From Arenicola marina (lineage: Eukaryota > Annelida > Polychaeta > Arenicolidae), in assembly GCA_964019135.1 (NCBI GenBank), contig OZ025265.1, positions 18,575,143-18,639,142 of the forward strand: a stretch of DNA of 64,000 bases, written 5' to 3'. Each line of letters begins with the position of its first letter. Position 1 is the first letter of the stretch. This document shows positions 8,826-63,415 of the stretch, in pieces. The position numbers and the translations under genes are program-made. The notes beneath the pieces are model-generated. The model was not told the DNA's origin, searched no databases, and was given only the letters and a program-made list of their open reading frames with translations.

Positions 8826-11800
8826 AAACCGGGGCCACCCCGCTGCCTGCTTCGCAAGCCCCGGGCCGGAGCCACCCCGCTGCCCCTCCCTACTTCCAAA
8901 GCCCCGGGCCGGAGCCACCCCGCTGCCCCTCCCTACTTCCCAAGCCCCGGGACGGAGCCACCCCGCTGCCCCTCCCTACTTCGCAAGCCCCGGGCCGGAG
9001 CCACCCCGCTGCCCCTCCCTAGTTTGCAAGCCCCGGGCCGGAGCCACCCCGCTGCCCCTCCCTACTTTGCAAGCCCCGGGACGGAGCCACCCCGCTGCCC
9101 CTCCCTACTTCCCAAGCCCCGGGCCGGAGCCACCCCGCTGCCCCTCCCTACTTCCCAAGCCCCGGGCCGGAGCCACCCCGCTGCCCCTCCCTACTTCGCA
9201 AGCCCCGGGACGGAGCCACCCCGCTGCCCCTCCCTACTTCCCAAGCCCCGGGCCGGAGCCACCCCGCTGCCCCTCGCTATATCGCAAGCCCCGGGTCGGA
9301 GCCACCCCGCTGCCCCTCGCGATATCCCAAGCCCCGGGACGGAGCCACTCCGCTGCCCCTCCCTACTTCGCAAGCCCCGGGCCGGAGCCACGCCGCTGCC
9401 CCTCCCTACTTCGCAAGCCCCGGGACGGAGCCACCTCGCTGCCCCTCCCTACTTCCCAAGCCCCGGGCCGGAGCCACCCCGCTGCCCATCGCTATATCGC
9501 AAGCCCCGGGCCGGAGCCACCCCGCGGCCCCTCGCTATATCCCAAGCCCCGGGCCGGAGCCACCCCGCTGCCCCTCCCTACTTCGCAAGCCCCGGGACCG
9601 AGCCACCCCGCTGCCCCTCCCTACTTCGCAAGCCCCGGGCCGGAGCCACCCCGCTGCCCCTCCCTACTTCCCAAGCCCCGGGACGGAGCCACCCCGCTGC
9701 CCCTCCCAACTTCGCAAGCCCCGGGCCGGGACCACCCCGTTTCCCCTCCCTACTTCCCAAGCCCCGGGACGGAGCCACCCCGCTGCCCCTCCCTACTTTG
9801 CAAGCCCCGGGACGGAGCCACCCCGCTGCCCCTCCCTACTTCCCAAGCCCCGGGCCGGAGCCACCCCGCTGCCCCTCCCTACTTCCCAAGCCCCGGGCCG
9901 GAGCCACCCCGCGGCCCCTCCCTACTTCGCAAGCCCCGGGACGGAGTCACCCCGCTGCCCCTCCCTACTTCCCAAGCCCCGGGCCGGAGCCACCCCGCTG
10001 CCCCTCGCTATATCGCAAGCCCCGGGTCGGAGCCACCCCGCTGCCCCTCGCGATACCCAAGCCCCGGGACGGAGCCACTCCGCTGCCCCTCCATACTTCG
10101 CAAGCCCCGGGCCGGAGCCACGCCGCTGCCCCTCCCTACTTCGCAAGCCCCGGGACGGAGCCACCCCGCTGCCCCTCCCTACTTCCCAAGCCCCGGGCCG
10201 GAGCCACCCCGCTGCCCATCGCTATATCGCAAGCCCCGGGCCGGAGCCACCCCGCGGCCCCTCGCTATATCCCAAGCCCCGGGCCGGAGCCACCCCGCTG
10301 CCCCTCCCTACTTCGCAAGCCCCGGGACCGAGCCACCCCGCTGCCCCTCCCTACTTCGCAAGCCCCGGGCCGGAGCCACCCCGCTGCCCCTCCCTACTTC
10401 CCAAGCCCCGGGACGGAGCCACCCCGCTGCCCCTCCCAACTTCGCAAGCCCCGGGCCGGAGCCACCCCGTTTCCCCTCCCTACTTCCCAAGCCCCGGGAC
10501 GGAGCCACCCCGCTGCCCCTCCCAACTTCGCAAGCCCCGGGCCGAAGCCACCCCGCTGCCCCTCCCTACTTCCCAAGCCCCGGGCCGGAGCCACCCCGCT
10601 GCCCCTCCCTACTTCCCAAGCCCCGGGACGGAGCCACCCCGTTGCCCCTCCCTACTTTCCAAGCCCCGGGCCGGAGCCACCCCGCTGCCCCTCCCTACTT
10701 CCCAAGCCCCGGGCCGGAGCCACCCCGCTGCCCCTCCCTACTTCCCAAGCCCCGGGCCGGAGCCACCCCGCTGCCCCTCCCTACTTCGCAAGCCCCGGGA
10801 CGGAGCCACCCCGCTGCCCCTCCCTACTTCGCAAGTCCCGGGACGGAGCCACCCCGCTGCCCCTCCCTACTTCCCAAGCCCCGGGCCGGAGCCACCCCGC
10901 TGCCCCTCCCTACTTCGCAAGCCCCGGGACGGAGCCACCCCGCTGCTCCTCCCTACTTCGCAAGCCCCGGGCCGGAACCACCCCGCGGCCCCTCCCTACT
11001 TCCCAAGCCCCGGGACGGAGCCACCCCGCTGCCCCTCCCTACTTCGCAAGCCCCGGGACGGAGCCACCCCGCTGCCCCTCCCTACTTCGCAAGCCCCGGG
11101 ACGGAGCCACCCCGCTGCCCCTCCCTACTTCCCAAGCCCCGGGCCGGAGCCACCCCGCTGCCCCTCCCTACTTCGCAAGCCCCGGGACGGAGCCTCCCCG
11201 CTGCCCCTCCCTACTTCCCAAGCCCCGGGCCGGAGCCACCCCGCTGCCCCTCCCTACTTCCCAAGCCCCGGGACGGAGCCACCCCGCTGCCCCTCCCTAC
11301 TTCCCAAGCCCCGGGCCGGAGCCACCCCGCGGCCCCTCCCTACTTCCCAAGCCCCGGGCCGGAGCCACCCCGCTGCCCCTCCCTACTTTCCAAGCCCCGG
11401 GGCGGAGCCACCCCGCTGCCCCTCCCTACTTTGCAAGCCCCGGGACGGAGCCACCCCGCTGCCCCACCCTACTTCCCAAGCCCCGGGCCGGAGCCACACC
11501 GCTGCCCCTCCCTATTTCCCAAGCCCCGGACCGGAGCCACTCCGCTGCCCCTCCCTACTTCCCAAGCCCCGGGCCGGAGCCACCCCGCTACTAGCCCCTC
11601 CCTACTTCCCAAGCCCCGGAACGGAGCCACCCCGCTGCCCCTCCCTGCTTCCCAAGCTCCGGGCCGGAGCCACCCCGCTGCCCCTCCCTACTTCCCAAGC
11701 CCCGGGCCGGAGCCACTCCGCTGCCCCTCCCTACTTCCCAAGCCCCGGGACGGAGCCACCCCGCTGCCCCTCCCTACTTCGCAAGCCCCGGGCCGGAGCC

Positions 11801-11862
11801 ACTCCGCTGCCCCTCCCTACTTCCCAAGCCCCGGGACGGAGCCACTCCGCTGCCCCTCTGGT
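8826..11862. repeat. 43-bp GC-rich minisatellite (about 70 copies)
   Basis: Each unit has the blocks CCGGAGCCACCCCGCTGCCC, CTCCCTACTTC(G/C)CAAG and CCCCGGG. Variants are CCGGAG/ACGGAG, CGCAAG/CCCAAG and rarer CGCTATATCG. Three units (129 bp) are 43 codons, so all plus frames can stay open, which explains two overlapping ORFs of 1028 and 927 codons made only of Pro/Ser/Arg/Leu/Ala repeats. There is no start context, splice signal or domain, so I do not call a gene. Confidence 0.95.
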
Positions 11863-15500: not shown

Positions 15501-18500
15501 GGAGAGAGGGCTCTTCTCTGATCCTTCCCATTCTGGCGTTAGGACCCATCGTCTCGTTGTGACCCATTGTCGCGTTGTGACCCATTGTCGCGTTGTGACC
15601 CATTGTCGCGTTGTGACCCATTGTCTCGTTGTGACCCATTGTCGCGTTAGGACCCATTGTCTCGTTGTGACCCATGGTCGCGTTGTGACCCATTGTCGCG
15701 TTGTGACCCATTGTCGCGTTGTGACCCATTGTCGCGTTGTGACCCATTGTCGCGTTGTGACCCATTGTCGCGTTGTGACCCATTGTCGCGTTGTGACCCA
15801 TTGTCGCGTTGTGACCCATTGTCGCGTTGTGACCCATTTTCGCGTTGTGACCCATTGTCGCGTTAGGACAAGCATAACAAGCTTCAAGCTTAACTCAACC
15901 ATCCAAGCAACCATTCAGCCTCAGATTCTACACCTGAGTGATCATTATTCGATGCTTGTCCTCGCAGGGAGTCACATAAGTCCTAAGGAACCATTGAAAG
16001 AACTCCGTGACCAACCGACCGATTAGTAATTAGTATTCTTTGACCTTTAACCCTAGCCTCCCTGACGTCGGTCATACGTCACTATCTGTCATGCGCGGTA
16101 GACTTGATTTGTTTGTGCCAGCATTGTCATTACGGAATAAAGCGTCGAACATAACAGTCTCCAATCACTACAGGGGCCACCGCGATAGCTCAGTGGGTTA
16201 GAGCGCTCGCATTGAGCGCACTGGCCACCTGAGAACCTAGCGGCACGTGGAACGATGGTTCGAGCCCCGCTGCGGCGTTGTCTGTGTGGCCGCAGGATAA
16301 AGATCCCATGTCCTTCTTCCTTCTTCACAAAGAGTAGGGGGTTAATCCCGGGGGCATGGCTTCTTTTTTCCTTTCCTTTTCCCATTGACGCGATATGACC
16401 AAAAGTGGTTAAAGCGTCTTGAATATATAACCAACCAATGACTACACAGGCTGAGCTGACGTTGGGATCATGGAGCGAGAAGACAGAAAACCTGCAGTTC
16501 GCAGACTTCAACTTCACCGTCACCCACCATTTCTTGAACCAAGAGGCGGAGGAAGCAGAGACGGCACCCGAGGAGGGAGGAGAAAAAACAGATGGAACAG
16601 ATGAACATGACGACCGAGGGGGTGAAAGGGAACAGCCCGAAGCCGACACGGAGCCGGACGATGGTCAGTGGTTTATCTCTGATGTTTTTAGACAGGTTCT
16701 TGCATTAAATTAATTAATTGTAGATATTTATCATAATCCCACACTAAATTTAAATAAAGCTGTTCTTTTCTGACCTGCAGGCGTCTTTCTCGTATATTGA
16801 GGTGCCCCGATCATTCCTTTCATCCTTTTGATTTTGATGCTCGATGACTTGCTAAATCAAATAAATTAGTGTTTTAGACCACTTTTGTGTACATGAAGGC
16901 TAAATTAGAACCAAGAAACCCCCCGGAACAAGACAGTGAAGTTAAATGAAATTGTCGTTTACTCTCTCGTGACTTGCAGACCTGCAGCCCATGGCATTGA
17001 TGACCTGGTGAAAAAACCTTTCGCCTTTCCCACTCTGACTCGCAGACCAGCAGCCTAGTGGCATGGTATTAAATGCTAAATGAAGCTTTTGTCGTACAGT
17101 CTCTGAATCGCAGACCTGCAACCCACATGGCATGAAGTCTTTGACTTGAATGACATGCTAACTAAAGCTTTCGTCTTACCCTCTGTTGACCTTCAGACCT
17201 GCAGCCCGTGGCATTGGATGACATGCTCAATAAAGCTCTTGTCTTACCCTTCCTGTCTTGTAGACCTGCAGCCCACATGACGTGAAGCTTATGTCTTACC
17301 CTTCCTGTCTTGTAGACCTGCAGCCCACATGACGTGAAGCTTGTGTCTTACCCTTCCTGTCTTGTAGACCTGCAGCCCACATGACCTGAAGCTTGTGTCT
17401 TACCCTTCCTGTCTTGTAGACCTGCAGCCCACATGACGTGAAGCTTATGTTTTACCCTTCCTGTCTTGTAGACCTGCAGCCCACATGACGTGAAGCTTGT
17501 GTCTTACCCTTCCTGTCTTGTAGACCTGCAACCCACGTGACGTGAAGCTGGTGTCTTACCCTTCCTGTCTTGTAGACCTGCAACCCACGTGACGTGAAGC
17601 TTATGTCTTACCCTTCCTGTCTTGTAGACCTGCAGCCAACATGACGTGAAGCTGGTGTCTTACCCTTCCTGTCTTGTAGACCTGCAACCCACGTGACGTG
17701 AAGCTTATGTCTTACCCTTCCTGTCTTGTAGACCTGCAACCCACGTGACGTGAAGCTGGTGTCTTACCCTTCCTGTCTTGTAAACCTGCAGCCCACATGA
17801 CGTGAAGCTGGTGTCTTACCCTTCCTGTCTTGTAGACCTGCAGCCCACATGACGTGTAGCTTGTGTCTTACCCTTCCTGTCTTGTAGACCTGCAACCCAC
17901 GTGACGTGAAGCTGGTGTCTTACCCTTCCTGTCTTGTAGACCTGCAACCCACGTGACGTGAAGCTTATGTCTTACCCTTCCTGTCTTGTAGACCTGCAGC
18001 CAACATGACGTGAAGCTGGTGTCTTACCCTTCCTGTCTTGTAGACCTGCAGCCCACGTGACGTGAAGCTTGTGTATTACCCCTCCTGTCTTGTAGACCTG
18101 CAGCCCACATGACGTGAAGCTTGTGTCTTACCCTTCCTGTCTTGTAAACCTGCAGCCCACATGACGTGAAGCTTGTGTCTTACCCTTCCTGTCTTGTAGA
18201 CCTGCAGCCCACGTGACGTGAAGCTTGTGTATTACCCCTCCTGTCTTGTAGACCTGCAGCCCACATGACGTGAAGCTTGTGTCTTACCCTTCCTGTCTTG
18301 TAGACCTGCAACCCACGTGACGTGAAGCTGGTGTCTTACCCTTCCTGTCTTGCAGACCTGCAACCCACGTGACGTGAAGCTTATGTCTTACCCTTCCTGT
18401 CTTGTAGACCTGCAACCCACGTGACGTGAAGCTGGTGTCTTACCCTTCCTGTCTTGTAGACCTGCAACCCACGTGACGTGAAGCTTATGTCTTACCCTTC

Positions 18501-21500
18501 CTGTCTTGTAGACCTGCAGCCCACATGACGTGAAGCTGGTGTCTTACCCTTCCTGTCTTGTAGACCTGCAACCCACGTGACGTGAAGCTTATGTCTTACC
18601 CTTCCTGTCTTGTAGACCTGCAGCCAACATGACGTGAAGCTGGTGTCTTACCCTTCCTGTCTTGTAGACCTGCAGCCCACGTGACGTGAAGCTTGTGTAT
18701 TACCCCTCCTGTCTTGTAGACCTGCAGCCCACATGACGTGAAGCTTGTGTCTTACCCTTCCTGTCTTGTAAACCTGCAGCCCACATGACGTGAAGCTGGT
18801 GTCTTACCCTTCCTGTCTTGTAGACCTGCAGCCCACGTGACGTGAAGCTTGTGTATTACCCCTCCTGTCTTGTAGACCTGCAGCCCACATGACGTGAAGC
18901 TTGTGTCTTACCCTTCCTGTCTTGTAGACCTGCAACCCACGTGACGTGAAGCTGGTGTCTTACCCTTCCTGTCTTGTAGACCTGCAACCCACGTGACGTG
19001 AAGCTTATGTCTTACCCTTCCTGTCTTGTAGACCTGCAACCCACGTGACGTGAAGCTGGTGTCTTACCCTTCCTGTCTTGTAGACCTGCAACCCACGTGA
19101 CGTGAAGCTTATGTCTTACCCTTCCTGTCTTGTAGACCTGCAGCCAACATGACGTGTAGCTGGTGTCTTACCCTTCCTGTCTTGTAGACCTGCAGCCCAC
19201 GTGACGTGAAGCTTGTGTATTACCCCTCCTGTCTTGTAGACCTGCAACCCACGTGACGTGAAGCTTGTGTATTACCCTTCCTGTCTTGTAGACCTGCAGC
19301 CCACATGACGTGAAGCTTGTGTCTTACCCTTCCTGTCTTGTAAACCTGCAGCCCACATGACGTGAAGCTGGTGTCTTACCCTTCTGTCTTGTAGACCTGC
19401 AGCCCACATGACGTGTAGCTTGTGTCTTACCCTTCCTGTCTTGTAGACCTGCAGCCAACATGACGTGAAGCTTGTGTCTTACCCTTCCTGTCTTGTAGAC
19501 CTGCAGCCCACATGACGTGCAGCTTGTGTCTTACCCTTCCTGTCTTGTAGACCTGCAGCCAACATAACGTGAAGCTTGTGTCTTACCCTTTTTGTCTTGT
19601 AGACCTGCAGCCCACATGACGTGAAGCTTGTGTCTTACCCTTCCTGTCTTGTAGACCTGCAGCCCACATGACGTGCAGCTTGTGTCTTACCCTTTTTGTC
19701 TTGTAGACCTGCAGCCAACATGACGTGAAGCTGGTGTCTTACCCTTCCTGTCTTGTAGACCTGCAGCCCACATGACGTGTAGCTCGTGTCTTACCCTTCC
19801 TGTCTTGTAGACCTGCAGCCAACATGACGTGAAGCTTGTGTCTTACCCTTCCTGTCTTGTAGACCTGCAGCCAACATGACGTGAAGCTTGTGTCTTACCC
19901 TTCCTGTCTTGTAGACCTGCAGCCCACATGACGTGCAGCTTGTGTCTTACCCTTTTTGTCTTGTAGACCTGCAGCCAACATGACGTGAAGCTGGTGTCTT
20001 ACCCTTCCTGTCTTGTAGACCTGCAGCCAACATGACGTGCAGCTTGTGTCTTACCCTTCCTGTCTTGTAGACCTGCAGCCCACATGACGTGAAGCTGGTG
20101 TCTTACCCTTCCTGTCTTGTAGACCTGCAGCCCACATGACGTGAAGCTTGTGTCTTACCCTCCCTGTCTTGTAGACCTGCAGCCCACATGACGTGTAGCT
20201 TGTGTCTTACCCTTCCTGTCTTGTAGACCTGCAGCCCACATGACGTGAAGCTTGTGTCTTACCGTCCCTGACTTGGATGACCTGCTAAATAAAGCTTTAG
20301 TCTTTGCCTCTGTAACTTGCAGACCGGCAAGCCCCTGGCATTTGATGACCTGTTAAATGAAACATGACATAGATGACATGTTAAATGAAAAGTCTTTTCC
20401 CCTCTCTGTCTCACAGACCTGCAGCCCGTGGCCTGGGGAGACATAATGTCCTCTGAGAATGACTTCCCGGGCCGCGCCCACTGCCTGTGTCGGTGGTACG
20501 GCCTGCGGGACTTTATCGTCATGGCTCCCGCGTCCTCCATGGACGACATCCTCAGCGAGAGCCGCGCCAAGCTGCTCCTCAGCTCAGTGGCCATCGCGCA
20601 GCACAACACCACCTGGTGAGTGGGGGGCCGGCGCGATAGCTCAGTGGGCGAGAGCGCTCGCATTGAGTGAGTACTCTGGCCACCTGAGAGCCTAACGGCA
20701 CGTAGATCGGTGGTTCGAGCCCCGCTGTGGCCATGTCAGTGTGGTCGCAGGATAAAGATCCCATGTCCCTCTTCGCAAAGACTAGAGGGTTACCCCCGGG
20801 ACATGGCTCCGCTCTTTCCTTCCTTTTCCCATCGACGCGATACGACCAGAATTGGTTAAAACGTCCTAAATATACAACCATCCTGACCCGCAGAGCTACT
20901 CCAGTTTGACGGCCACTTGCAATGGGTTTTCTCCGGTATGTCTCACAGTTCGGTGCCCGTCTTTGTACAATTTTCACCAGAAGTGGTGACACGGCCACTT
21001 GCAATGGGTTTTCTCTGGTATGTCCCACAGTTCGGTGCCCGTCTTTGTACAAGTTCACCAGAAGTGGTGACACGGCCACTTGCAATGGGTTTTCTCTGGT
21101 ATGTCCTACAGTTCGGTGCCCGTCTTTGTACAAGTTCACCAGAAGTGGCGGCGCCTGTTTTTCGGACACCTCAGCTGTCCTGGTTTCCGGACTTCCTTCG
21201 AGATGGTTCACCTCAAGTACGTTCCCCATCAGTACAGTCACTTGGCCGGACTGCTGGACGTGTACAAAGCCAAACTGGTGAGAACAATGGAAAGGTCATG
21301 CGTTGAATTAAAGTGTTTGTGCCACGCCAAAACAACTTTAGCTCATATTAATCTTCTATGTGTCTGCGCTTATATTATCGAGCTGTAACGCCCAAAATCG
21401 TAGAAGGGCATACTTTTTCCACTTGTTTTCGCACTTACCAATTTAACTTCTGCGAGCGAGGAAAGTGACGTCAAAGAGGAATACAAACGCACGTGCTTTT

Positions 21501-24500
21501 ATATTGAGACTCAGATTCTGTCTGCTCATTGGCTTGAACTCAACGAAATGCACTCAACCATGAAAACGATACACGCCCTCGACCACAGATGTCTACGCAC
21601 TGCATCAAAGCTCACCTGTCAATCTTGTGACGTCATTGGGGAATTTTCAAATAACGCTCAGATGCAATGCTCCCAGAAGTAAACTGGCCGGACCTCACTC
21701 TTGCTACTTTAACGAACCCGTTTATAGTGATATCGTGGAATAAAAAACTCCCATTAAAACAAATTGTTTTTTGTTTATCTTCTCTAAACCAAGTTAACTC
21801 TGAGCAAGACAAAATCGTGGCACGAACACTTTAATCACCACGTAAAGACCACGCAAATCAAAATGACAGTTAGACTCGATATTTTGTTACCACGATTTTT
21901 AGCTACATGTCACGCGTTGAGTTAATTACCACGGCAAGACGTAGCATATCAAAATGACAGCTAGACTCGACATTTTGTTACCGCGATTTGTAGCAAAATG
22001 TTATGCGTTGAGATAATTAGCACATGAAGACTAAATCTTCCTTGTCTTTCTGGTCACAGCTCTGTCCGGTGAGCCCGCTTATGCCAGTCACTGTAGGCGT
22101 CCGGTTCACATACGTCTTACACGACTGGATCAGCTATAGCTGGCCCCAGCAACCGCCAGGTGAGTTCAACCAACCACTGCGCTCGTTACTTCTGGCCGTA
22201 GCAACCGCCAGGTGAGTTCAACCAACCACTGCGCTCGTTACTTCTGGCCATAGCAACCGCCAGGTGAGTTCAACCAACCACTGCGCTCGTTACTTCTGGC
22301 CATAGCAACCGCCAGGTGAGTTCAACCAACCACTGCGCTCGTTACTTCTGGCCATAGCAACCGCCAGGTGAGTTCAACCAACCACTGCGCTCGTTACTTC
22401 TGGCCATAGCAACCGCCAGGTGAGTTCAACCAACCACTGCGCTCGTTACTTCTGGCCATAGCAACCGCCAGGTGAGTTCAACCAACCACTGCGCTCGTTA
22501 CTTCTGGCCATAGAAACCGCCAGGTGAGTTCAACCAACCACCGAACTCGTTACTTCTGGCCATAGAAACCGCCAGGTGAGTTCAACCAACCACCGAACTC
22601 GTTACATCTGGCCATAGGGTGGGTTTAGCCAACCACTGCGCTCGTTACAGCGGGCCCCAGCGACCGTGCATTTTGTACAATTTAAATGTTGATACAATCT
22701 CAGTGATTGAAGCCGGTGAATTATCTCCCTGGTAGATATGGATTCTCTGACGGCTAATGAGGTGGGAGTGGTGGAGTTTGGAGATCTTCCCTTCGGTCCT
22801 TGTGAAGATCCAGTCAGGTGAGTTGCGTATAATGCCAGATATAAAAGACAACTTTAATGACTGTGTGGTAGGCGAGATTATCCCCCATGCGAGATGTCCC
22901 CCCCACCCTGTGTCTTTCATAATGGCACCGTACGAAGACATGGAGCGGTGAGGGTCTCAATACCATGTATTCTATATAAGGGGGACAGCTGTGCATGTGG
23001 GGGACACGTGTCTGAAAAATGTGCGAAATAACATGAGGTAATGTTAATTCAAACTAAAGTACAAATTTATCATTACATAAAATAGTTCCCGCCACATATG
23101 CACTTGACCTAACATGCGAATAGCTCAACCAGCAGCAAAACACCACTTATACATACTTGGCCTAACGTTTGAATGCCACTTGCAGCGAGCTCAACCTGTC
23201 GACCACGTGGCCGAGTCTATCTGAGGAGATGATCGTCGACAATGATGTGTACTCGTAAGTCTTGTTGCCATGTTAAAATCAAATAGATTGTGTTTTAGGC
23301 CGCTTTTGTGCACACAATGGTTAAACTATAAAAACTTAAAGATTTCACTTTAAACACTTCTTTAGGAGGTGATACTTCCAGTATCAGAAAATATTTCCCG
23401 TAGGTTTTTTTAAATAATATTTAAAAAATCATGATATATATGAAAAATTACTGTATGAACAGCTTTAATCAACTCTATAAACGACTCTTGTACTCTTTTG
23501 TTTTAGCGACCTTGACCCTTTACAAGCCCCACACTGGTGTGTAAGAGTCAGGATGACTGAAAACCCGCAGTGCCTGCTGGGTAGGTTATCGAGTCTCGCG
23601 GTGACCGCTGGGTAGGTTTTGCCTTGGTTAGGCAATTGAATAATAATTCTAAAGCACGAACTGACGTGGCGAATATATATTACATGCCAACAGAATGATC
23701 TCCGGAGTACAGTTTATTATCAATTGACAGTTCTGTGATAACACTAACTTGTCTTTCAGTCGTACATATTCAGTCGTGAGATAAAGTGCCCAAGGTGACC
23801 ATACTTACTAAAACATAAATCTGGGGCTTTACATAATGCAAAACTCATTCACGGAGGCTAAAACATATATAATATACTTCATTTTTCGGCTTTCTCGATG
23901 CTAGGAATGTCAGCATTGGCTGCACAATTAATAAAGAATATTTAATAGTCGGATTACCAGGATAATAAAACCAAAAATCCAATAAATTATTGGTCGTATA
24001 TGTTCTTGAATTAATTATATATATACATGTAGTTTAATTATTCGGTATTTCTCTATTTCCTGCAGGTGATTATTTAGAAGAATTCGTTCAGCTGTGCCGA
24101 AGGAAAGAGTCCACCGATCAGTTACTGGGGAAATCTATATTAGATGATGAGAACGGTAAGGATCCAAAACTTTCTATTATTAGATTAAATAGTTGTCAAA
24201 TTTTCATGTGTTTTTTCGCCGCACTTACTCTCTTACGTTCATTGATGTGAATTGCTACGATTATGTATATTTTGGACATATTTGACGTGGGAGGTTATTG
24301 AGGGGCAAATTGGCAAGGTGCCCTTAAAAACACAAAGTTCTTAATGTAATTGAGCTCTTGTAGTTCCTGCTACAGCAAATGCGGGATTTCTTTATGCAGA
24401 TATATATTTGCGCACAGTCAGTTCTGTGAATAACGTAAATTCAGACTCATTTTTAATTTAAAGATGCTATAAATACCTAGAAGACTTCGTAATATTTAGT

Positions 24501-27500
24501 ATTAATTAGTAATTTACTGTAGAGATGTTCATATATATTTTCTATGATCTCGTGATGAGTATATGGCGAGACTGCTCAAGGGCATACATTCCAGGGAGAA
24601 AAAAAACTATGTGTATGATTTTTAAACAAAATGGTTAAGCCATATCATGGGTGCGACAATCAAAACTGCTTGACTGATTGTGTGATGAACGTTTGGTTTC
24701 AAACTTGCTGTCCTGGGTGTTAGTATATGACTGTCAATCTTCTCCTCGTTGACCCCCGTCTCGCCTCTCCCACCCACCCTCCTCGCTCAGACATGGACGT
24801 CAGCCAAGCGCTCCAGCGACTGACTGAACCCGGACCCTACAAACTACCGTCTCTGGGACGGGTGGTAACCAGGGCAACTTCTAAGCTCCAGATGAAGCCG
24901 GAGGAGGCGCCAATCCCTGCAGACCTACTCAACGAAATATTACTGGTGCGACACCACGAGGGTCACACGACCAGCTTGATTGGGCTTTATCTGGGAAGCT
25001 TAACCGACGTCGCTCCTGGCATCAAATTCCGATCATGCTGTAAAGACTGTGTCTGTGATTGCTTCACGGGGCAATGATGGTATTGCAATGATGCAGCACG
25101 TATGGAGTGAGCGCGTTTGTATTAAGTCTTTAAGAAACGTAGGCGTTATCAAAAGTATCATCATGGCAAAACATGGCAGCAATGTCCAGATTAGATGATC
25201 GTAGAGAGTAGGGAGTTACCCCCGGGGACATGGCTCAACTCTCCCGTCTTTCTCCCATTGACGCGATATGACCAAAAGTGGTTAAAGACGTCCTGATTAT
25301 ACAACCAATCAGATTGGATGAAGTAGTACACAAGAAAAACACACTGGGATGCGCCGTTAAGGCGAAAAAGGTGTGGTTACCCCACGTCTTTTTATTTAAG
25401 GCACTCTTTATGTTTGTCCTTATACAATAAACACCTCGATTCATCGTTTTCTATTTTAATAATTTTACGTAATTGTCCACATAAAATGCTGCAAGATAAA
25501 CTGTAACGTTAACCCCGTGGTCTAGTAGGTAACCCGTTGGGCTGTATGGTAGTGTGCTCCGCTACGAGTGTGGTTGGAATCCAACCGGTGCAAATGATTG
25601 TGCAGGATACAGATCCTAAGTCTTTCTTTACAAAGACTAGAGGCTCAATTTCTCTCGGAGACGCGGCATCTCTCTACCTTTCCCTGCTCATTGTCACGAC
25701 ATGAGCTACAGAGGTTAAAACGTTCTACTTTAAACCAACCAAATACAAGTTTTTCTATATCTTTTTCGTGTCCCTAGATGCTGTTTCCAGACGCCAAATC
25801 TGACGCCCAGAAGATCTCCAAGAGCATGTCTGCGGCGTCCCTGGCGGGCGGGGAGGGTGGGGGAGGGGGAGGTGAGGGTAGTGACGCCAGCAAGGAGAAC
25901 TCCCCGCCATCCCGGGGCGATCCGCAGGACTTGGAGAAATCCATGGTGAGTTAGTTGTACGATATATGGAAGACATGGAAAAAATCGTGGTTAGTTGTGC
26001 GATACATGGAAGACCCGGAGAAAGCCATCGTTAGTTGTGTGATACATGCAAGACCTGGCGAAATGCATGGTTAGTTGCGTGATACATGCAAGACCCGGAG
26101 AAATCCATTGTTAATTGCGTGATACATGGAAGACCCGGAGAAATCCATGTTTAGTTGTGCTTTTTTTGTGCGTTAGTTCAATCTAGTGCTCTTAATCGTC
26201 ATAAAAACAGAGGATAAAAAAATCTTGATTCTCCTTGGCTTTAACACATTTTTTAAAAAGCCCCTGAGATAGAAATAAAATCACACAAAGTCAGTACGTT
26301 AGAAAACAAATTTAGCGGAGATTTAATTTGAGGTGGTTCATGAGACGCAGGCGGTGATACGAGATTCAGGTGTTGAATAATCATATACAAACTGCAAGCT
26401 ACCGATCATTACATTTCATTACACTATATGTAACTCTTACTACCCCCCCGCCACCCCGCCCTACCCCCCACGCAGGAGATGTTCAAGCAGTTTAAGTCTG
26501 CCCCGGCCGGGACCCTCAGCTACCGTCTCGCCACCTGTATGTGTATCGTGAACCACAGTTACGGCGGTCTGCGGGCCGTCGTCCACCTCTGGCAGGAGTT
26601 CGTGCTGGAGATGCGCTACCGCTGGGAGAACAACTATCCCGTGCCCGAGTGAGTATCTTAACATGGAAGCCCATTGCGGAAATAATTGTTTCTTTTAGTT
26701 GTATTATATATATTGCTTACTGAAGCTGTTACATTTTGTTTTTTTCTGCCAGTTTAGTACGAAAAGATATTTAGAAAATAAGTCTTGCCATTTGTTGTTG
26801 ACTTATTGTTTATTGAAGGTTTTACATGTCAGTGTCCGGCCAGCTTAGTATGGAAAGCAATTCCGAAAACAATCCCCTGTGTCAATCTGAGTCTAGGAAT
26901 CTAGTTCCTTTTACTTTGTTATCACAGAAGACGTCTTCGCCCAAGTAAACTGTTCTCATGAGCGTATGAAGCGTTTATTTTGGCATTAAATCAAACTCAA
27001 ATACTTGTCAGAAAGGTAGGATTCAATGTCCATAAGGAAGTGACCTTATACTTGTACAGCCATGAATATTAGCTGTGTATGATGCTAATTATATGACGGC
27101 GTTTTATTTACAGTTTAGACCCTGGATCACCTAACATGGGCTGCAGCTTGCTCCACCAGAAATTACAGGTAAGTCTAACTTCAGGCCTTATTCACAATAG
27201 GTGCCGTGTATTATTCCCAGCATTGCGGAAGGTATATGGTTTACATTTCCCTTTCTTGAGGATTTTTAAACGTAAACCTGTGGAGGATAAGAAACTGTTT
27301 ATAAAATATTGAATGTTCAAGTTGAAGGTTTATGTAAACGTAACTGTGTCAATTCTTTCATCTTATGAAAACATTTAAGGTCTTATCGTCCTTTATTGTG
27401 TAATTCACAGTAAAACATGAAAACATTTAAGGTCTTATCATCATTAATTGTGTACTTTACAGTATAACATGAACACAGTTAAGGTCCTATCGTCACTAGT

Positions 27501-30500
27501 TGTCTACTTCACAGTATCACACTGCATTATTTTCAGGACTTTGTGAGCACAGGGTCACGTGCGTAATAAAATAACATTTTAGCAAAGTCAATCACTCGAG
27601 ATTTTACTACAAGGATCATTAATGTCTTTTGCCAGATGTTGAATTGTTGCATCGAACGGAAAAAAGCAAGGGAGGCGCTCGCTAGTTCCAGAGGCGTCCC
27701 GCGAGCTGGCGCTTCAGCGAGATTGGACTCAATCTCCAGCGACACGGCAGATGGCGCTGACGACGCCATGAAACCACGTGGCCGATCCGGCTCCAAACCC
27801 GACGCGTCCGTCTCAAGCGACGACGAATTCTTCGAGTGCGAAGACGACAACGCCAGTGACGTGGGCTCCGACAAAGCCGCCAGCCAATCAGGAGCGGAGC
27901 CGATGGACGTCGACCAATCAGATTCCAAGGCGCCGTCCTCGGGAAGCCAGTCAGAGACGCGGAGACGGCTGCGCGAGCGGGATCAGTCTGTCGACGTGGC
28001 GTTCGCCGATTCGTTCACCCACCAGCCCGAGGGCCGGCTCAAGCCCTGTGATGACCTGAGGCTGTTGAATGTGGACGAGGCGTTGTACATACCACTGACC
28101 CAGGAACCGGCGCCCATGACGGAAGACATGCTGGAGGAACACGCCGAGGTGCTCGCCAAGTGAGTTACTTAATGGGAGATGTTCTTCAGTTCATTCTTGA
28201 ATTCCGTACACCGCAATGTACAGTGCTGCCCCCTATAGGGTCTGTAAGTGACATCACAGACAGCGCGCGCTCACCTCCAGCGAATCCGGTTCTGGGTACA
28301 TGACACTTCACCATCCGATATACAAAACATGGAGAGCTAGTTGTAATGGCGTGAAACGCACAAACAACCAGCGTCTTTCAATTCAAAAGTAGTCTGAAAA
28401 ACATTTACTCCATATGGTTTTCGACTCTAACAGTGCATTCATATCAAAAACTTCACGGAGTCTAATTTGAGGCCCATAGTAAAGTATAAGGACCCGCTGA
28501 CGCGTTGTAACCAAAATGGTTGTTCTAGAGAGGAGCGCGCGCTGTACCTCAATGTACAGTGCTGCCCTCTATTGATTATAGTCAGGATATTCCAGCATAT
28601 TCCAGCATCAGCTCGCGACCGGTGTAAATTATTTGATAACTTATGGCTGATTTTATATTACAGTAAAACCTCCACGCCCGACTACCTCCCTAACCCAATC
28701 GCCTCCCTAACTCGGATTTTTTTTCTCCAGTCCCGACGGTCGGCCTATGCTTTAGCATTGTAACAGTATTCTCTAACCCGATCACCTCCCTACTCTGTAA
28801 GTCAATGGATCATTTTGGTCCCAAAGCCCCGTTTCATATTCCCTAATCGAGCCGATCGGTTGTCGGCTAGCGGAAGGATTAGTGTCACCGGCTGATTGCA
28901 ATTAGCAGAACGCGCACACTCCGGCGATAACGCCTGTGGACTGAATGGCACTCTTGAAATGCGTGAAACATGTTTGCTTGTTGTTATAGGTTGTTAGAGT
29001 ATGCATTGAAGCTTTGATGTTCTTGACCCCAAAACTCCCTGGTTATAACACACCCGTAAGATACAAGTAGTTTATCTCCCTCAGCGTCAGGGCAGCAATG
29101 TATTTGATTTTTGATAGGTTAGTTGTATATTCATGTCTCTACTCTGTCCTCTGTCTCTCGCAGTGGACCCCCGGGGACATGGCTTTACTCAGTGCTCTGG
29201 CCACCTGAGAGCCTAACGGCACGTGGGTCGGTGGTTCGCGCCCCGCTGTGGCCATGTCTGTGTGGTCGCAGGATAAAGATCCCATGTCCTTCTTCTCAAA
29301 GAGTAGGGGGTTACCCCCGGGGACATGGCTCCACTCTCCCTTCCTTCTCCCATTGACGCGATATGACCAAAAGCGGTTAAAACGTCCTGAATATACAACC
29401 AACAATCAACCAGTCAGTGTAGCTGCTGTAAATAGCCCTATCTACACTCTGGTGGCCCAGATTTAGCGCACATGCGCACAAAAGGTGGCCGAAAAAAACA
29501 CCCAATTTGTTTTTCATCCATCTCAAATCTGAATCTCTACCTGTGTAGACTGGGGACGTCGCCAGAGGGCGCCACGCTGCGTGCCCGGATGCAGAGCGCC
29601 TGTCTGCTGTCCGACATGGAGTCCTTCCGGGCGGCCAACCCGGGGTGCATCCTGGGAGACTTCGTCCGCTGGTACTCGCCCCGGGACTGGGTGGAGGAGG
29701 ACGTGGTGGCGGAGGATGGCACCGTCACCAGGAAAAGTGAGTGTAAGGGGGGGGGGGGGCAGAGGTGGTGGCGGAGGATGGCACCGTCACCAGGAAAAGT
29801 GAAAGGAGGGGTGGTGGGGTGGATGGGGGGGGGGGCGGAGGACGGCGCCGTTACCAGGAAAAGTGAGTGGAGGGTGGGGGGGGTAGCGGCCGGGAGGAAG
29901 TGGAGAGCGGTGGGGGGGGGGGGGGAGTTGGCTTAGTTTTAAGACTTAGGGCGAACCATTGTTTCAGCATAGCTCTCGAATTACTCACCCCAAACTTTTA
30001 GTACAGTAGTCAATACCCTGGGCTCTAACATGGTATATATGGACGTAATTGTACAGGACCCATCTTCCATGTTAGATCCATCGGAATGGATTATTAGTGT
30101 AAATTGAAGGCCTGAGTAATACTTGAGCAATGCTGAAACAATAGTTCGCCCCTAATCACTATTTGTCCCGTAGGCTCAGGTCTTTCCGCCTCCTAAATTG
30201 TCCCCGAGCTGTAAACCCATTATGTGTTAGGCGTCATGACCATGTCCTAGGAGCCATCGTCGTACGCAGACTGGCGGCTGCCAACAACTGGACGAGCCGG
30301 AAATTAATATTCTCTCCCACAACTCTTCGAGTGTCCCCATCACACGAACAATTTCAAGCAAAACAAATAGTAAGCTGTTTTTTTTTATATCAAAGTCTAT
30401 ATAAAAGTGATCCGTGTCTTATGTTAGGTGACTGTCCGAGTGAGTGGTGTCCTCGCCTTGTTTACAGGTCAGCTGAGTGCCCGGATGCAGATCCCGGGTA

Positions 30501-33500
30501 ACATGTGGGTGGAGGTTTGGCAGAGTGCCAAGGCCGTGCCGGCCAGGCGACAGCGGCGTCTGTTCGACGACACCAAGGAGGCCGAGAAGGTATTTACGCT
30601 ATTATATATTTATATTAAATCTATATATGAAATATATTATAATGTAGTAAATGGTCTTGTGATATTCGACCGTAAATAAAGGGCATTGTGCTCTGTCTCG
30701 CTGAGACCCTTGGCGGATTTCACGAACCCAGTTTAGCAGACTACGGGAATTACTTGGTTACGATGCAAATGACGGGCGATTGTAGCCGTCTGAGCCCCTA
30801 TGTACGTGAAATAGGCCACATAGATCTCGACTGGTTGTCGGGTGAGCAGACTGTCCTGTGAGGTTTGGAGCTCGCCTAATGTAGGTCCTAGTATGGTTTT
30901 GATATAATGAGGTTTGACTCTACCATTAGTAGTAATACAGAACACGTGTGTCTGTCCTGTAGGTCCTTCATTGGCTTGTCGCCATGACTACTAGTAGTAA
31001 TACAGAACACGTGTGTCTGTCCTGTAGGTCCTTCATTGGCTTGTCGCCATGACTACTAGTAGTAATACAGAACACGTGTGTCTCTCCTGTAGGTCCTTCA
31101 TTGGCTTGTCGCCATGACTACTAGTAGTAATACAGAACACGTGTGTCTGTCCTGTAGGTCCTCCATTGGCTCGCCGCCATGACTACTAGTAGTAATACAG
31201 AACACGTGTGTCTCTCCTGTAGGTCCTTCATTGGCTTGTCGCCATGACTACTAGTAGTAATACAGAACACGTGTGTCTGTCCTGTAGGTCCTCCATTGGC
31301 TCGCCGCCATGACTACTAGTAGTAATACAGAACACGTGTGTCTGTCCTGTAGGTCCTTCATTGGCTTGCCGCCATGACTACTAGTAGTAATACAGAACAC
31401 GTGTGTCTGTCCTGTAGGTCCTCCATTGGCTCGCCGCCATAACTACTAGTAGTAATACAGAACACATGTGTCTGTCCTGTAGGTCCTTCATTGGCTTGCC
31501 GCCATGACTACTAGTAGTAATACAGAACACGTGTGTCTGTCCTGTAGGTCCTCCATTGGCTCGCCGCCATGACTACTAGTAGTAATACAGAACACATGTG
31601 TCTGTCCTGTAGGTCCTTCATTGGCTTGTCGTCATGACTACTAGTAGTAATACAGAACACGTGTGTCTGTCCTGTAGGTCCTTCATTGGCTTGTCGCCAT
31701 GACTACTAGTAGTAATACAGAACACGTGTGTCTGTCCTGTAGGTCCTCCATTGGCTCGCCGCCATGACTACTAGTAGTAATACAGAACACGTGTGTCTCT
31801 CCTGTAGGTCCTTCATTGGCTTGTCGCCATGACTACTAGTAGTAATACAGAACACGTGTGTCTGTCCTGTAGGTCCTCCATTGGCTCGCCGCCATGACTA
31901 CTAGTAGTAATACAGAACACGTGTGTCTCTCCTGTAGGTCCTTCATTGGCTTGTCGCCATGACTACTAGTAGTAATACAGAACACGTGTGTCTGTCCTGT
32001 AGGTCCTCCATTGGCTCGCCGCCATGACTACTAGTAGTAATACAGAACACGTGTGTCTGTCCTGTAGGTCCTTCATTGGCTTGCCGCCATGACTACTAGT
32101 AGTAATACAGAACACGTGTGTCTGTCCTGTAGGTCCTCCGTTGGCTCGCCGCCATGACTACTAGTAGTAATACAGAACACATGTGTCTGTCCTGTAGGTC
32201 CTTCATTGGCTTGCCGCCATGACTACTAGTAGTAATACAGAACACGTGTGTCTGTCCTGTAGGTCCTCCATTGGCTCGCCGCCATGACTACTAGTAGTAA
32301 TACAGAACACATGTGTCTGTCCTGTAGGTCCTTCATTGGCTTGTCGTCATGACTACTAGTAGTAATACAGAACACGTGTGTCTGTCCTGTAGGTCCTTCA
32401 TTGGCTTGTCGCCATGACTACTAGTAGTAATACAGAACACGTGTGTCTGTCCTGTAGGTCCTCCATTGGCTCGCCGCCATGACTACCAGTAGTAATACAG
32501 AACACATGTGTCTGTCCTGTAGGTCCTTCATTGGCTTGTCGCCATGACTACTAGTAGTAATACAGAACACGTGTGTCTGTCCTGTAGGTCCTTCATTGGC
32601 TTGTCGCCATGACTACTAGTAGTAATACAGAACACGTGTGTCTGTCCTGTAGGTCCTTCATTGGCTTGTCGCCATGACTACTAGTAGTAATACAGAACAC
32701 GTGTGTCTGTCCTGTAGGTCCTCCATTGGCTCGCCGCCATGACTACTAGTAGTAATACAGAACACATGTGTCTGTCCTGTAGGTCCTTCATTGGCTTGTC
32801 GCCAAGACTACTAGTAGTAATACAGAACACGTGTGTCTGTCCTGTAGGTCCTTCATTGGCTTGTCGCCATGACTACTAGTAGTAATACAGAACACGTGTG
32901 TCTGTCCTGTAGGTCCTTCATTGGCTTGTCGCCATGACTACTAGTAGTAATACAGAACACATGTGTCTGTCCTGTAGGTCCTTCATTGGCTTGTCGCCAT
33001 GACTACTAGTAGTAATACAGAACACGTGTGTCTGTCCTGTAGGTCCTTCATTGGCTTGTCGCCATGACTACTAGTAGTAATACAGAACACGTGTGTCTGT
33101 CCTGTAGGTCCTCCATTGGCTTGTCGCCATGACTACTAGTAGTAATACAGAACACGTGTGTCTGTCCTGTAGGTCCTTCATTGGCTTGTCGCCATGACTA
33201 CTAGTAGTAATACAGAACACGTGTGTCTGTCCTGTAGGTCCTTCATTGGCTTGTCGCCATGACTACTAGTAGTAATACAGAACACGTGTGTCTGTCCTGT
33301 AGGTCCTCCATTGGCTCGCCGCCATGACTACTAGTAGTAATACAGAACACATGTGTCTGTCCTGTAGGTCCTTCATTGGCTTGTCGCCATGACTACTAGT
33401 AGTAATACAGAACACGTGTGTCTGTCCTGTAGGTCCTCCATTGGCTCGCCGCCATGACTACTAGTAGTAATACAGAACACATGTGTCTGTCCTGTAGGTC

Positions 33501-36500
33501 CTTCATTGGCTTGTCGCCGTGACTACTAGTAGTAATACAGAACACGTGTGTCTGTCCTGTAGGTCCTTCATTGGCTTGTCGCCATGACTACTAGTAGTAA
33601 TACAGAACACGTGTGTCTGTCCTGTAGGTCCTCCATTGGCTCGCCGCCATGACTACTAGTAGTAATACAGAACACATGTGTCTGTCCTGTAGGTCCTTCA
33701 TTGGCTTGTCGCCATGACTACTAGTAGTAATACAGAACACGTGTGTCTGTCCTGTAGGTCCTTCATTGGCTTGTCGCCATGACTACTAGTAGTAATACAG
33801 AACACGTGTGTCTGTCCTGTAGGTCCTTCATTGGCTTGTCGCCATGACTACTAGTAGTAATACAGAACACGTGTGTCTGTCCTGTAGGTCCTCCATTGGC
33901 TCGCCGCCATGACTACTAGTAGTAATACAGAACACGTGTGTCTCTCCTGTAGGTCCTTCATTGGCTTGTCGCCATGACTACTAGTAGTAATACAGAACAC
34001 GTGTGTCTGTCCTGTAGGTCCTCCATTGGCTCGCCGCCATGACTACTAGTAGTAATACAGAACACATGTGTCTGTCCTGTAGGTCCTTCATTGGCTTGCC
34101 GCCATGACTACTAGTAGTAATACAGAACACGTGTGTCTGTCCTGTAGGTCCTCCATTGGCTCGCCGCCATGACTACTAGTAGTAATACAGAACACGTGTG
34201 TCTCTCCTGTAGGTCCTTCATTGGCTTGTCGCCATGACTACTAGTGGTAATACAGAACACGTGTGTCTGTCCTGTAGGTCCTTCATTGGCTTGTCGCCAT
34301 GACTACTAGTAGTAATACAGAACACGTGTGTCTGTCCTGTAGGTCCTTCATTGGCTTGTCGCCATGACTACTAGTAGTAATACAGAACACGTGTGTCTGT
34401 CCTGTAGGTCCTTCATTGGCTTGTCGCCATGACTACTAGTAGTAATACAGAACACGTGTGTCTGTCCTGTAGGTCCTCCATTGGCTCGCCGCCATGACTA
34501 CTAGTAGTAATACAGAACACATGTGTCTGTCCTGTAGGTCCTTCATTGGCTTGTCGCCATGACTACTAGTAGTAATACAGAACACGTGTGTCTGTTTTGT
34601 AGATCCTCCATTGGCTCGCCGCCATGACTACTAGTAGTAATACAGAACACATGTGTCTGTCCTGTAGGTCCTTCATTGGCTTGTCGCCATGACTACTAGT
34701 AGTAATACAGAACACGTGTGTCTGTCCTGTAGGTCCTCCATTGGCTCGCCGCCATGACTACTAGTAGTAATACAGAACACGTGTGTCTCTCCTGTAGGTC
34801 CTTCATTGGCTTGTCGCCATGACTACTAGTAGTAATACAGAACACGTGTGTCTGTCCTGTAGGTCCTCCATTGGCTCGCCGCCATGACTACTAGTAGTAA
34901 TACAGAACACATGTGTCTGTCCTGTAGGTCCTACATTGGCTTGCCGCCATAACTACTAGTAGTAATACAGAACACGTGTGTCTGTCCTGTAGGTCCTCCA
35001 TTGGCTCGCCGCCATGACTACTAGTAGTAATACAGAACACATGTGTCTGTCCTGTAGGTCCTTCATTGGCTTGTCGCCATGACTACTAGTAGTAATACAG
35101 AACACGTGTGTCTGTCCTTTAGGTCCTTCATTGGCTTGTCGCCATGACTACTAGTAGTAATACAGAACACGTGTGTCTGTCCTGTAGGTCCTCCATTGGC
35201 TCGCCGCCATGACTACTAGTAGTAATACAGAACACATGTGTCTGTCCTGTAGGTCCTTCATTGGCTTGTCGCCATGACTACTAGTAGTAATACAGAACAC
35301 GTGTGTCTGTCCTGTAGGTCCTTCATTGGCTTGTCGCCATGACTACTAGTAGTAATACAGAACACGTGTGTCTGTCCTGTAGGTCCTCCATTGGCTCGCC
35401 GCCATGACTACTAGTAGTAATACAGAACACATGTGTCTGTCCTGTAGGTCCTTCATTGGCTTGTCGCCGTGACTACTAGTAGTAATACAGAACACGTGTG
35501 TCTGTCCTGTAGGTCCTTCATTGGCTTGTCGCCATGACTACTAGTAGTAATACAGAACACGTGTGTCTGTCCTGTAGGTCCTCCATTGGCTCGCCGCCAT
35601 GACTACTAGTAGTAATACAGAACACATGTGTCTGTCCTGTAGGTCCTTCATTGGCTTGTCGCCATGACTACTAGTAGTAATACAGAACACGTGTGTCTGT
35701 CCTGTAGGTCCTCCATTGGCTCGCCGCCATGACTACTAGTAGTAATACAGAACACATGTGTCTGTCCTGTAGGTCCTTCATTGGCTTGTCGCCATGACTA
35801 CTAGTAGTAATACATAACACGTGTGTCTATTTTGTAGGTCCTCCATTGGCTCGCCGCCATGACTACTAGTAGTAATACAGAACACATGTGTCTGTCCTGT
35901 AGGTCCTTCATTGGCTTGTCGCCATGACTACTAGTAGTAATACAGAACACGTGTGTCTGTCCTGTAGGTCCTCCATTGGCTCGCCGCCATGACTACTAGT
36001 AGTAATACAGAACACGTGTGTCTCTCCTGTAGGTCCTTCATTGGCTTGTCGCCATGACTACTAGTAGTAATACAGAACACGTGTGTCTGTCCTGTAGGTC
36101 CTCCATTGGCTCGCCGCCATGACTACTAGTAGTAATACAGAACACATGTGTCTGTCCTGTAGGTCCTACATTGGCTTGCCGCCATAACTACTAGTAGTAA
36201 TACAAAACACGTGTGTCTGTCCTGTAGGTCCTCCATTGGCTCGCCGCCATGACTACTAGTAGTAATACAGAACACATGTGTCTGTCCTGTAGGTCCTTCA
36301 TTGGCTTGTCGCCATGACTACTAGTAGTAATACAGAACACGTGTGTCTGTCCTGTAGGTCCTCCATTGGCTTGCCGCCATGAAGCCGTCAGATGTCGCCC
36401 TACGTCTGATGCCGATGCTAGCGCACTCTGCGATAACCAAGCTTCTGGAACAAGGTGAGTCTCTTGTCTTCTGGAACAAGGTGAGTGTCTGTCTTCAGAA

Positions 36501-60103: not shown

Positions 60104-62032
60104 TCAAGCCGAGACCGTTTCGAAGATGGATTCTTTGATGATCTCGCCGAAGTTCTGAGTGCCGTTGGACTGCTCGGCGCTGTTGGGGCTGTCCATCCCG
60201 GCGCTGTTGACGGCTGCCTCCTGCCGCGGGGTGAGGGAGTCGACCACCTCTTTAGGTCGGCGCATCGCCTCCTCCTCCGTCATCAAGTCGAACTGGTCCA
60301 CGGGCTGCACCCTCTGGGCGGCGGGGAAGCCGTACAGCTCCTCGGAGGGCTCCCCGCCGCCGGTCCCCGGCGCGGGCGGGACACCCCCCGTGCCGCAGTG
60401 AAACGACGCCACCGCCGAACGCCGGCTCGGATGGGCTGATGAAGAATCGAAGGCGCCGGCCGCGCCCTGATTGGCTGTCGATGAGACGCTGTAGGTTGAG
60501 GGGCACGTCGAGGAGTCGACGGCTCGCCGAGCTGGGGATTTAAGCTCCAGGTAGCGGGGCGTCTCCTCGTCCTCGTCTTCCTCCTCCTCCTCACCCTCTT
60601 CTCCCTCCTCCGCCTCCTCCTCCTCCTCCTCCGCCTCCTCCTCCTCCGCATCGTTGGCGTCGCCGGCTTTCGCCACGTGGTCGGCCATAGAATGGTCCCC
60701 GCCGCTGCCGCTCTCCAGGGACGCTGTACCGGCGGCTGATCCAGACGTGGACGCGTTGCCGGGGTAACCAGCCGCGGCGGCGACACCTGTCGAGCAGCTG
60801 AGATCCAAATACTGCCGGTCAGGGCTTTGGTGCGGGGAGTGGGTGGGGTTGTTATTATGAGAGGGGGCGTTTAATAGCTCCATCGTCGGGCTGACGCGTC
60901 CGTTGGTACCCCGAGCGTCAATCCCATGGCCGTCGCCGCGTCCCCCGGCACCCGCGCCGCCTCCCCCGCTCTGCCCCTCGCAGCCGCCGCCATGGTTACC
61001 GGCGCTGGGGTCGTGGTTACCGGCGCTGGGGTCGCCGCCGATGCCGTCGCACGGTCCCCCCCTCATGGACCCCCCCAGCGCCTCGTCAGACTGATGGCAG
61101 TGCTGAGAATGGTGGTGGTGATGGTGGCGCCCCTGGTGGTTGGCGTACACGGAGAAGTCTGTCGGGGCGTGCTGGGGGTAGGCCGAGACCGGCCTGGCGG
61201 TCATCGACACCGGGTAGCCACCGTCCCCCATGTACGGCCCTTCGTGGTGGCCGCTGAGGCCGTGCTCGTGGAGGCTCTTGGAGTACTGGTGGCAGTAGGC
61301 GGCGGCCTGCTGTGTACCCCAGGCCCCCGAGGGTCCGCCAGCCACAGCCTGGGGAGACGGCTGGCCTCCGCCCCCACCACCCCCACCACCATTCCCGCCA
61401 CCCCCGCCATAACCGGGGAAGCGAATCGGGTTGAGAATTTCTGATATGGGTTCTAATTTGTAGCCAGCTACCGAATTACTGAGATCCATGTATTTCTGCT
61501 CGGCAGAGACCGTGGTGGGCCCGAAGTCTTGGGGGCCTTGAGGGGGTATGCACGGGTACCCGGGGCCCTGCTGCTGGCCGGCGGCCGGGTGGTGGTGGTG
61601 GTGGTGGTGGTGGTGCTGCCCCGGGCCGACGACGCGACCGCCGACCCCATCGCCCGGTTTCCGCGGCTCACCGCCTTCCCCGACCCCGGCCGGGTCCGCC
61701 GCCATCTCGTAGGCGGCGGGCGGGTCGTGGTGGAAGCCGGGGCCGTCCAGCGGCGGGTTGAGGGTGCTGCTGGCGTTGGCCGTGGCCGTGGCCGTGGCGA
61801 TGGCGTTAGCGGTGGCTGTGGCCAGATCCTCGCCGCCCGTGTCGCTAGCCTCGCTGGAACAGTCGCTGCTCTCCGAGTACGAGCTCTCCTCCTTGGGGAA
61901 CTGGTACATCATCGTCGTGTTCTCCGCGTTGTACGCCTCCTCGTCGTCGCTGAACAGCATCACCTGCGGCAGCGACTCCCCCGGGTTGCTGACGGTCGGC
62001 AGGCCTTCGTGGTGCGGGGGAATCGCCACCCC

Positions 62033-62064
<32 letters not shown>

Positions 62065-62536
62065 TACAGCCGCCCCCAGCGCTGGCCCCGCCCACCCCAG
62101 GGGACCCAGACCCCGACCCTGACCCCGACCCGGACACCGCCGGGCAGAAGGTCGGCCGGCCCGGCACCGAGGGTCCCAGACAGGCCGATGACGACGAGGA
62201 GGTGTTGTCCAGCTCGGCACCGGAACCTGATCCCGAACCGGAACTGGCCGGGCTGGCTCCGAAGTGCGACTCCCGCAGGATGATGTCACTGAGCTCCCCC
62301 TTTTGGCAATCCCGGCAACTACCACGCTCCGTGCTGTTATACACATCCATCGTCATGCCACCGGGACCAGGACTGGGACTAGATCCGGGTCCGTGTCCGG
62401 GGCTAGATCCGGGACTGGAACGCTGCACGGACGACGCCAGCACCGCCGGCGGCGGGGATGAGAAACATTCCGGATTCCCATTCATCCCCTCATCCTCATT
62501 GTCCAGCCTCCCGGATTCGCTCTCCGACTCGCTCCT

Positions 62537-62569
<33 letters not shown>

Positions 62570-63357: not shown

Positions 63358-63415
63358 CTGCAAATCACAGATAACACATAGCATTAATACAGGCACATCT
63401 CATGATGGGACTTCA

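Follow-up and report, generated by a model that had tools for sequence, protein, structure and literature searches.

The DNA considered here is a window of 64,000 nucleotides from the annelid Arenicola marina (GenBank assembly GCA_964019135.1, contig OZ025265.1, forward-strand positions 18,575,143 to 18,639,142; coordinates below count from its first letter). It holds a RAB3GAP1 gene in which 7 of the 42 splice junctions lie within head-to-tail tandem arrays, the repeated unit including the splice site and adjoining exon bases. The coding region is complete in the predicted exon model, with 22 exons, GT-AG introns and 1056 amino acids without an internal stop, and its product matches PF13890 (E 5.1e-64) and PF19533 (E 2.4e-52) in Pfam and the RAB3GAP1 chain 8vyb_A (1090 bits). 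No relatives of RAB3GAP1 were found in prokaryote and viral contigs, which was the expected outcome. Junctions are named by type and exon number (A, acceptor; D, donor). Tandem Repeats Finder (TRF) at its default score returned 19 rows within the gene span, which merge into 16 non-overlapping arrays. The gene and the seven arrays at its junctions (A5, A6, A19, D7, D13, D17 and D19) are as follows.

12526-41161, plus strand: RAB3GAP1 coding region (predicted exon model, Pfam, RAB3GAP1 chain match)
16930-20427, plus strand: A5 array, junction 20416/20417; 52 bp, 58 core units at about 17233-20285 (TRF)
20909-21148, plus strand: A6 array, junction 21111/21112; 81 bp, 3 copies, 37 bp of exon (TRF)
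22140-22656, plus strand: D7 array, junction 22159/22160; 52 bp, 9 copies, 20 bp of exon (TRF)
25925-26160, plus strand: D13 array, junction 25945/25946; 40 bp, 6 copies including a diverged exonic copy (TRF row 25950-26160)
29703-29884, plus strand: D17 array, junction 29736/29737; about 62 bp, 2.9 copies (TRF), 3 by walk
30927-36382, plus strand: A19 array, junction 36357/36358; 65 bp, 84 copies, 25 bp of exon (TRF)
36442-36496, plus strand: D19 array, junction 36454/36455; 26 bp, 2.2 copies, 13 bp of exon (TRF)

Three acceptors and four donors are involved, and both boundary types are thus affected. The TRF periods are 26, 40, 52, 52, 62, 65 and 81 bp, and copy number runs from 2.2 (D19, TRF) to 84 (A19, unit-by-unit walk), in agreement with the 2 to about 84 copies given by an earlier sequence-only reading of the window. 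The walk gave 84 copies at A19, 58 in the core at A5, 9 at D7, 6 at D13 and 3 each at A6 and D17; it was used in place of a regular-expression count that proved too low (42 at A19, 39 at A5). The exon-side match (X-drop) extends 37 bp at A6, 20 at D7, 18-22 at D13, 48 at D17 (34 by the TRF start), 25 at A19 and 13 at D19, and at A5 its length depends on the copy compared, 11 bp with a core unit, 7 with the closest diverged copy and 28 with an old one. The statement that each unit takes in the splice site and 7-30 exon bases is therefore right as to inclusion and slightly low as to range. The units are mutually unrelated, as had also been claimed, the lowest shuffle P among 21 pairwise comparisons being 0.05.

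The limits set by TRF alone cross a junction at five of the arrays (A6, D7, D17, A19 and D19), while those at A5 and D13 are linked to theirs via diverged copies. When both sides of all 16 arrays were scored for extension against shuffles, extension toward the junction beat every shuffle at A5 (score 32, shuffle maximum 23) and at D13 (30, maximum 22). At A5, diverged copies flank the core on both sides, with extension scores of 50 to the left and 32 to the right against shuffle maxima of 22 and 23. Other extensions that exceeded all shuffles, on the outward side of the A5 array, the G-rich right side of D17 and the left side of the array at 38002, touch no additional junction. The outer limits 16930 (A5) and 25925 (D13) were fixed by eye. 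Read against the part of the human RAB3GAP1 alignment that was shown, four of the exon edges (A6, D7, D17 and A19) are in well-aligned stretches and two (A5 and D19) where similarity is weak; the end of exon 13 sits in a gap, which makes D13 the least secure junction.

An eighth repeated junction, donor 10, had been claimed, and here the claim is not confirmed.

23566-23618, plus strand: doubtful D10 repeat, junction 23580/23581; 22-bp repeat, 19 of 22 positions identical, 31-bp spacing

We regard this feature as doubtful and do not count it as an array: it is one diverged 22-bp repeat only, it produces no TRF row even at score 30, and it lies within chance, with 1.2% of 4000 sampled non-array positions reaching its score. 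Seven of the eight repeated junctions consequently stand. In a cruder self-match test, 8 of the 42 junctions scored at least 15 (A6, D7, D10, D13, D17, A19, D19 and A22), with A5 at only 11; A22 adjoins TAA-rich sequence. A null for this test drawn from random positions across the whole gene was dropped, as 39-42% of those positions themselves scored at least 15 (up to 25 or more), in our judgement because they fell in the big arrays, and it was replaced by a null based on a collapsed gene.

For that null each array was collapsed to one unit, leaving a gene of 17,239 bp into which 16 units with the lengths of the real ones were dropped at random, an overlap being counted when a unit extended 5 bp or more both into the exon and into the intron. 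Seven of the 16 arrays overlap a junction, against 1.45 expected under uniform seeding (P 0.00016) or 1.63 without wholly exonic placements (P 0.00044). An 8-bp rule or omission of three simple repeats gives P values of 0.00001 to 0.00015, and seeding matched to the GC (guanine plus cytosine) content of the units, with all 16 arrays, raises the expectation to 2.1-2.2 (P about 0.001, ranging up to 0.0011). Were only 6 overlaps accepted, P would be 0.003, and with 5 it would be 0.016. The claim of the sequence-only reading that the arrays exceed random seeding is thus borne out for RAB3GAP1 itself (7 of 16, for an expectation of 1.45-2.2). Arrays with units of at least 25 bp are furthermore concentrated in the gene, at 12 in 17.2 kb (collapsed) against 2 in 30.4 kb outside (P 0.0002), or against 4 outside if two arrays that overlap shorter-unit arrays are included (P 0.0018).

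The arrays supply the gene with many extra splice sites, or decoys, that are mostly intact. The AG is retained in all 84 copies at A19 and in 54 of 58 units at A5, CAG|GTGAGT is kept in 9 of 9 copies at D7, and GT is lost in one of six copies at D13. Scored with a small matrix built from RAB3GAP1 itself, the decoys equal the real site in strength at D7 (8/8) and D19 (1/1), and at A19 82 of 83 score no lower than it. By the same matrix they fall short of the real site at D13 (5/5), A6 (2/2), D17 (1/2) and A5 (31 of 37 scored, the scoring at this acceptor having proceeded in rigid 52-bp steps that took in 37 of the 58 core units). Given that decoys match the real site at A19, D7 and D19, splice choice at those junctions would have to rest on position, most simply through exon definition. 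The exon-adjacent copies give an open, RAB3GAP1-like coding sequence, and a premature stop followed in 13 of 13 trials of alternative sites (one of them, 20950, a base out of register, and one being the doubtful D10). These stops are weak as an observation and no evidence of selection, since 2604 of 2866 random junction duplications do likewise.

As descriptive figures, variability in splice-site columns is lower than in other columns at A19 (0.003 vs 0.030), A5 (0.022 vs 0.044), D7 (0 vs 0.034), A6 (0 vs 0.078) and D13 (0.11 vs 0.17). In the two largest arrays the units vary, with 20 distinct ones among the 84 at A19 and 31 among the 58 at A5, and the variants do not follow one another in a simple repeating order; just 5 columns at A19 carry a variant in at least four copies. 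By eye, the exon-joined copy differs from near-identical inner copies at A19 and D7, this being clear in these two only. Homogeneous inner copies with a deviant edge copy are the usual concerted-evolution pattern of tandem arrays, and the distinct exon-joined copy at A19 and D7 is that expected if edge copies escape homogenisation.

Arrays of this kind have been described before under the name of mirages, to which the sequence-only reading had likened them, and the likeness is apt so far as the available parts of PMC3087553 and PMC3902484 describe the published cases. In the amphioxus Adh3 gene (Canestro et al. 2002, as cited in PMC3087553 and PMC3902484), units of 10-72 bp are repeated head to tail over an exon-intron boundary, with splicing reported undisturbed and array length unstable. 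Adh3 and RAB3GAP1 have junction-spanning head-to-tail units in common; unlike Adh3, the latter has seven such junctions in one gene, up to 84 copies and an 81-bp unit above the Adh3 range. The amphioxus globins BflGb6 and BflGb9 carry mirages with units of 150-160 bp, BflGb6 with 6 and 3 repeat units in two haplotypes and BflGb9 with one duplicate (PMC3087553). They show, as RAB3GAP1 does, that duplication can affect exon boundaries at the 5' as well as the 3' end and that edge copies escape homogenisation, but their units are longer and one junction is described per gene. In lancelet PGBD5, 60-bp and 108-bp repeats lie over exons 3 and 4, and their copy number differs between assemblies (2 or 7, 3 or 6; PMC3902484). 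There too a single gene has more than one junction-overlapping array (two in PGBD5), though the copies are few and one array is partly annotated as exon.

Troponin C is also cited among the lancelet cases (PMC3902484), and the published mirage data suggest regular splicing (PMC3087553, PMC3902484). The RAB3GAP1 units of 26-81 bp fall in the published range (10-72, 60 and 108, and 150-160 bp). On the accounts available in these sources the phenomenon is not new in kind, having been described in several amphioxus genes (Adh3, globin, PGBD5 and others); as far as the literature examined shows, the new part is the count of seven in one gene and the excess within it. The RAB3GAP1 cluster is an extreme case of an already described phenomenon, subject to long-read confirmation. 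Among the titles and abstract openings listed from open-licence literature, no genome-wide junction-overlap test in lancelets was present. The parts of PMC2632668 that were available report only repeat density from a whole-genome TRF run in amphioxus, and those of PMC2206037 mention tandem repeats in amphioxus huntingtin without placing them at junctions. A related process is the origin of introns from tandemly duplicated AG/GT sites (Rogers 1989; Gao and Lynch 2009, as cited in PMC3087553), in which the duplication likewise carries a splice site; unlike that process, RAB3GAP1 gives no sign of a decoy turned into a working exon edge or of a new intron.

We consider that the RAB3GAP1 arrays are probably mirage-type minisatellites, that is, tolerated junction duplications followed by intronic expansion. 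A segment of 26-81 bp that chanced to cross an exon edge would have been duplicated in tandem by slippage or by repair between short direct repeats. The sole trace we can point to is at D19, where, as read from the sequence, the two-copy unit is bounded by CTTC direct repeats, which fits slippage or microhomology repair. The duplicate would be tolerated if splicing takes place at the copy still attached to the remainder of the exon, so that the real site is taken to be the first copy at donors and the last at acceptors. The remaining copies, now intronic, could then multiply, to as many as 84, and be homogenised through unequal exchange or slippage during replication. From the excess over random seeding we infer that junctions may be preferred seeds rather than the site of a lucky cluster. 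Several points weigh against this account. One genomic sequence is its whole basis, and splicing is read from a predicted open frame. The count of seven needs the diverged-copy joins at A5 and D13, strict TRF limits giving 5 of 16 (P 0.016), and nine of the 16 arrays in the gene lie away from junctions. Last, the pattern itself prompted the selection of the finding, and as the P values take no account of this, the true strength is less than they suggest.

These same points lend themselves to a plainer account, in which the overlap is incidental to a minisatellite-rich, many-exon gene and was noticed by a reader looking at splice sites. The concentration of long-unit arrays in the gene (12, against 2-4 outside), the nine arrays that touch no junction, the weaker result under strict TRF limits and a selection effect that is not correctable are all consistent with it. 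It must nonetheless accommodate 7 overlaps where 1.45-2.2 are expected (P 0.00016-0.0011), with yet lower P values under stricter rules or with simple repeats omitted, as well as the junction arrays independently reported in several amphioxus genes; we regard it as a serious possibility that falls somewhat short of an even chance. Very improbable, by comparison, is that the arrays are assembly artefacts. One published amphioxus mirage did seem aberrantly assembled in the draft genome (PMC3087553), but the unit variants at A19 and A5 are ordered unlike a simple repeat, and seven unrelated arrays at seven junctions are, in our judgement, atypical of assembler error.

It might also be supposed that the extra splice sites are kept because they control expression, perhaps through slower splicing or by sending some transcripts to decay. 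Such a role would suit the decoys that match the real site at D7, D19 and, in 82 of 83 copies, A19, the less variable splice-site columns at five junctions and the stops in all 13 alternative-site trials. Homogenisation alone, however, keeps copies alike, no more than five columns at A19 carry a variant in at least four copies, random junction duplications also stop prematurely, and the decoys at D13, A6 and A5 and one of the two at D17 are mostly or wholly weaker than the real site; we therefore think regulation quite unlikely. As to what might seed arrays at exon edges, the sequence-only reading had proposed R-loops, GC edges or spliceosome-coupled breaks, and sequence proxies (GC contrast, GC skew and folding) give these no support. 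In a comparison of the seven array junctions with the other 35, a small sample, the one difference in their direction is a higher GC content in the intron-side 50 bp (0.50 vs 0.38, P 0.036), a figure that includes array sequence. GC contrast between exon and intron is, if anything, reduced at array junctions (0.08 vs 0.16, P 0.22), and the two sets of junctions do not differ in exon length (P 0.45), in GC skew (P 0.84), in the GC content of the exon (P 0.25) or in folding, whether taken as energy (P 0.22) or as z (P 0.97). Seeding by R-loops or GC edges at exon boundaries is accordingly unlikely.

A stronger form of the tolerated-duplication account may be offered more tentatively. Junctions may be hot spots of minisatellite birth in this lineage, with duplications centred on exon edges, GTGAGT favoured at donors and the process tied to transcription or splicing; genes would then gain arrays of spare sites that the spliceosome must ignore and that might serve as seeds of new introns. 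Two post hoc observations are leads in this direction that need independent data. The junction lies near the unit middle in all seven arrays (exon fraction 0.21-0.55; mean distance from 0.5 of 0.09, P 0.005 against a uniform distribution), with a Kolmogorov-Smirnov test of its position within units giving P 0.08 only, and GTGAGT occurs at 4 of 4 array donors against 8 of 21 in the gene as a whole (P 0.012). If it is true that arrays seed at exon edges above chance, there would be a junction-linked source of DNA breakage or slippage, and duplicated splice sites would be readily available for intron gain. RAB3GAP1 also constitutes a natural test of splice choice, with 83 near-identical decoy acceptors preceding the presumed true site of exon 19 and, at exon 7, a presumed true donor followed by 8 decoys with an identical nine-base site.

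Other repeats in the gene include a dispersed element resembling a short interspersed element (SINE), with four plus-strand copies in introns (13971, 16286, 20741 and 29262) that have a 25-bp core in common. Stretches that by eye resemble a tRNA A-box closely precede two of these copies (at 16184 and 20635), and another is found beyond the gene at 6058; in the whole 64-kb window neither ARAGORN nor Rfam, used with its gathering thresholds, gave a match, and six SINE-like strings from the window occurred in no paper of the open-licence literature searched. A 54-bp unit repeated 15 times at 39832-40631 starts about 40 bp past the exon 21 donor, does not span the junction, and resembles by eye the 5' half of a tRNA with its A-box. 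An intronic array of three 52-bp copies at 27365-27521, the unit of which contains an acceptor-like CTTCACAG, lies over 100 bp short of the exon 16 acceptor and likewise does not span it. Upstream of RAB3GAP1, at 8846-11858, is a GC-rich array of 70 copies of 43 bp in which three plus-strand frames are open for more than 900 codons, probably a mere effect of the repeat.

Only five of the other long open frames were run against Pfam, and two matched. The minus-strand exon at 44298-45032 belongs to a TPR protein (TPR_1 E 8.4e-13) whose N-terminal part is FKBP-like, the match to FKBP_N_2 (E 7.9e-6) falling narrowly below the cut-off. A CSRNP-like gene, also on the minus strand, has a large exon at 60107-63364 (Pfam CSRNP_N, E 2.5e-65); upstream of the presumed acceptor of this exon, about 78 bp away and making no contact with it, is an array of 28 copies of a 20-bp unit.

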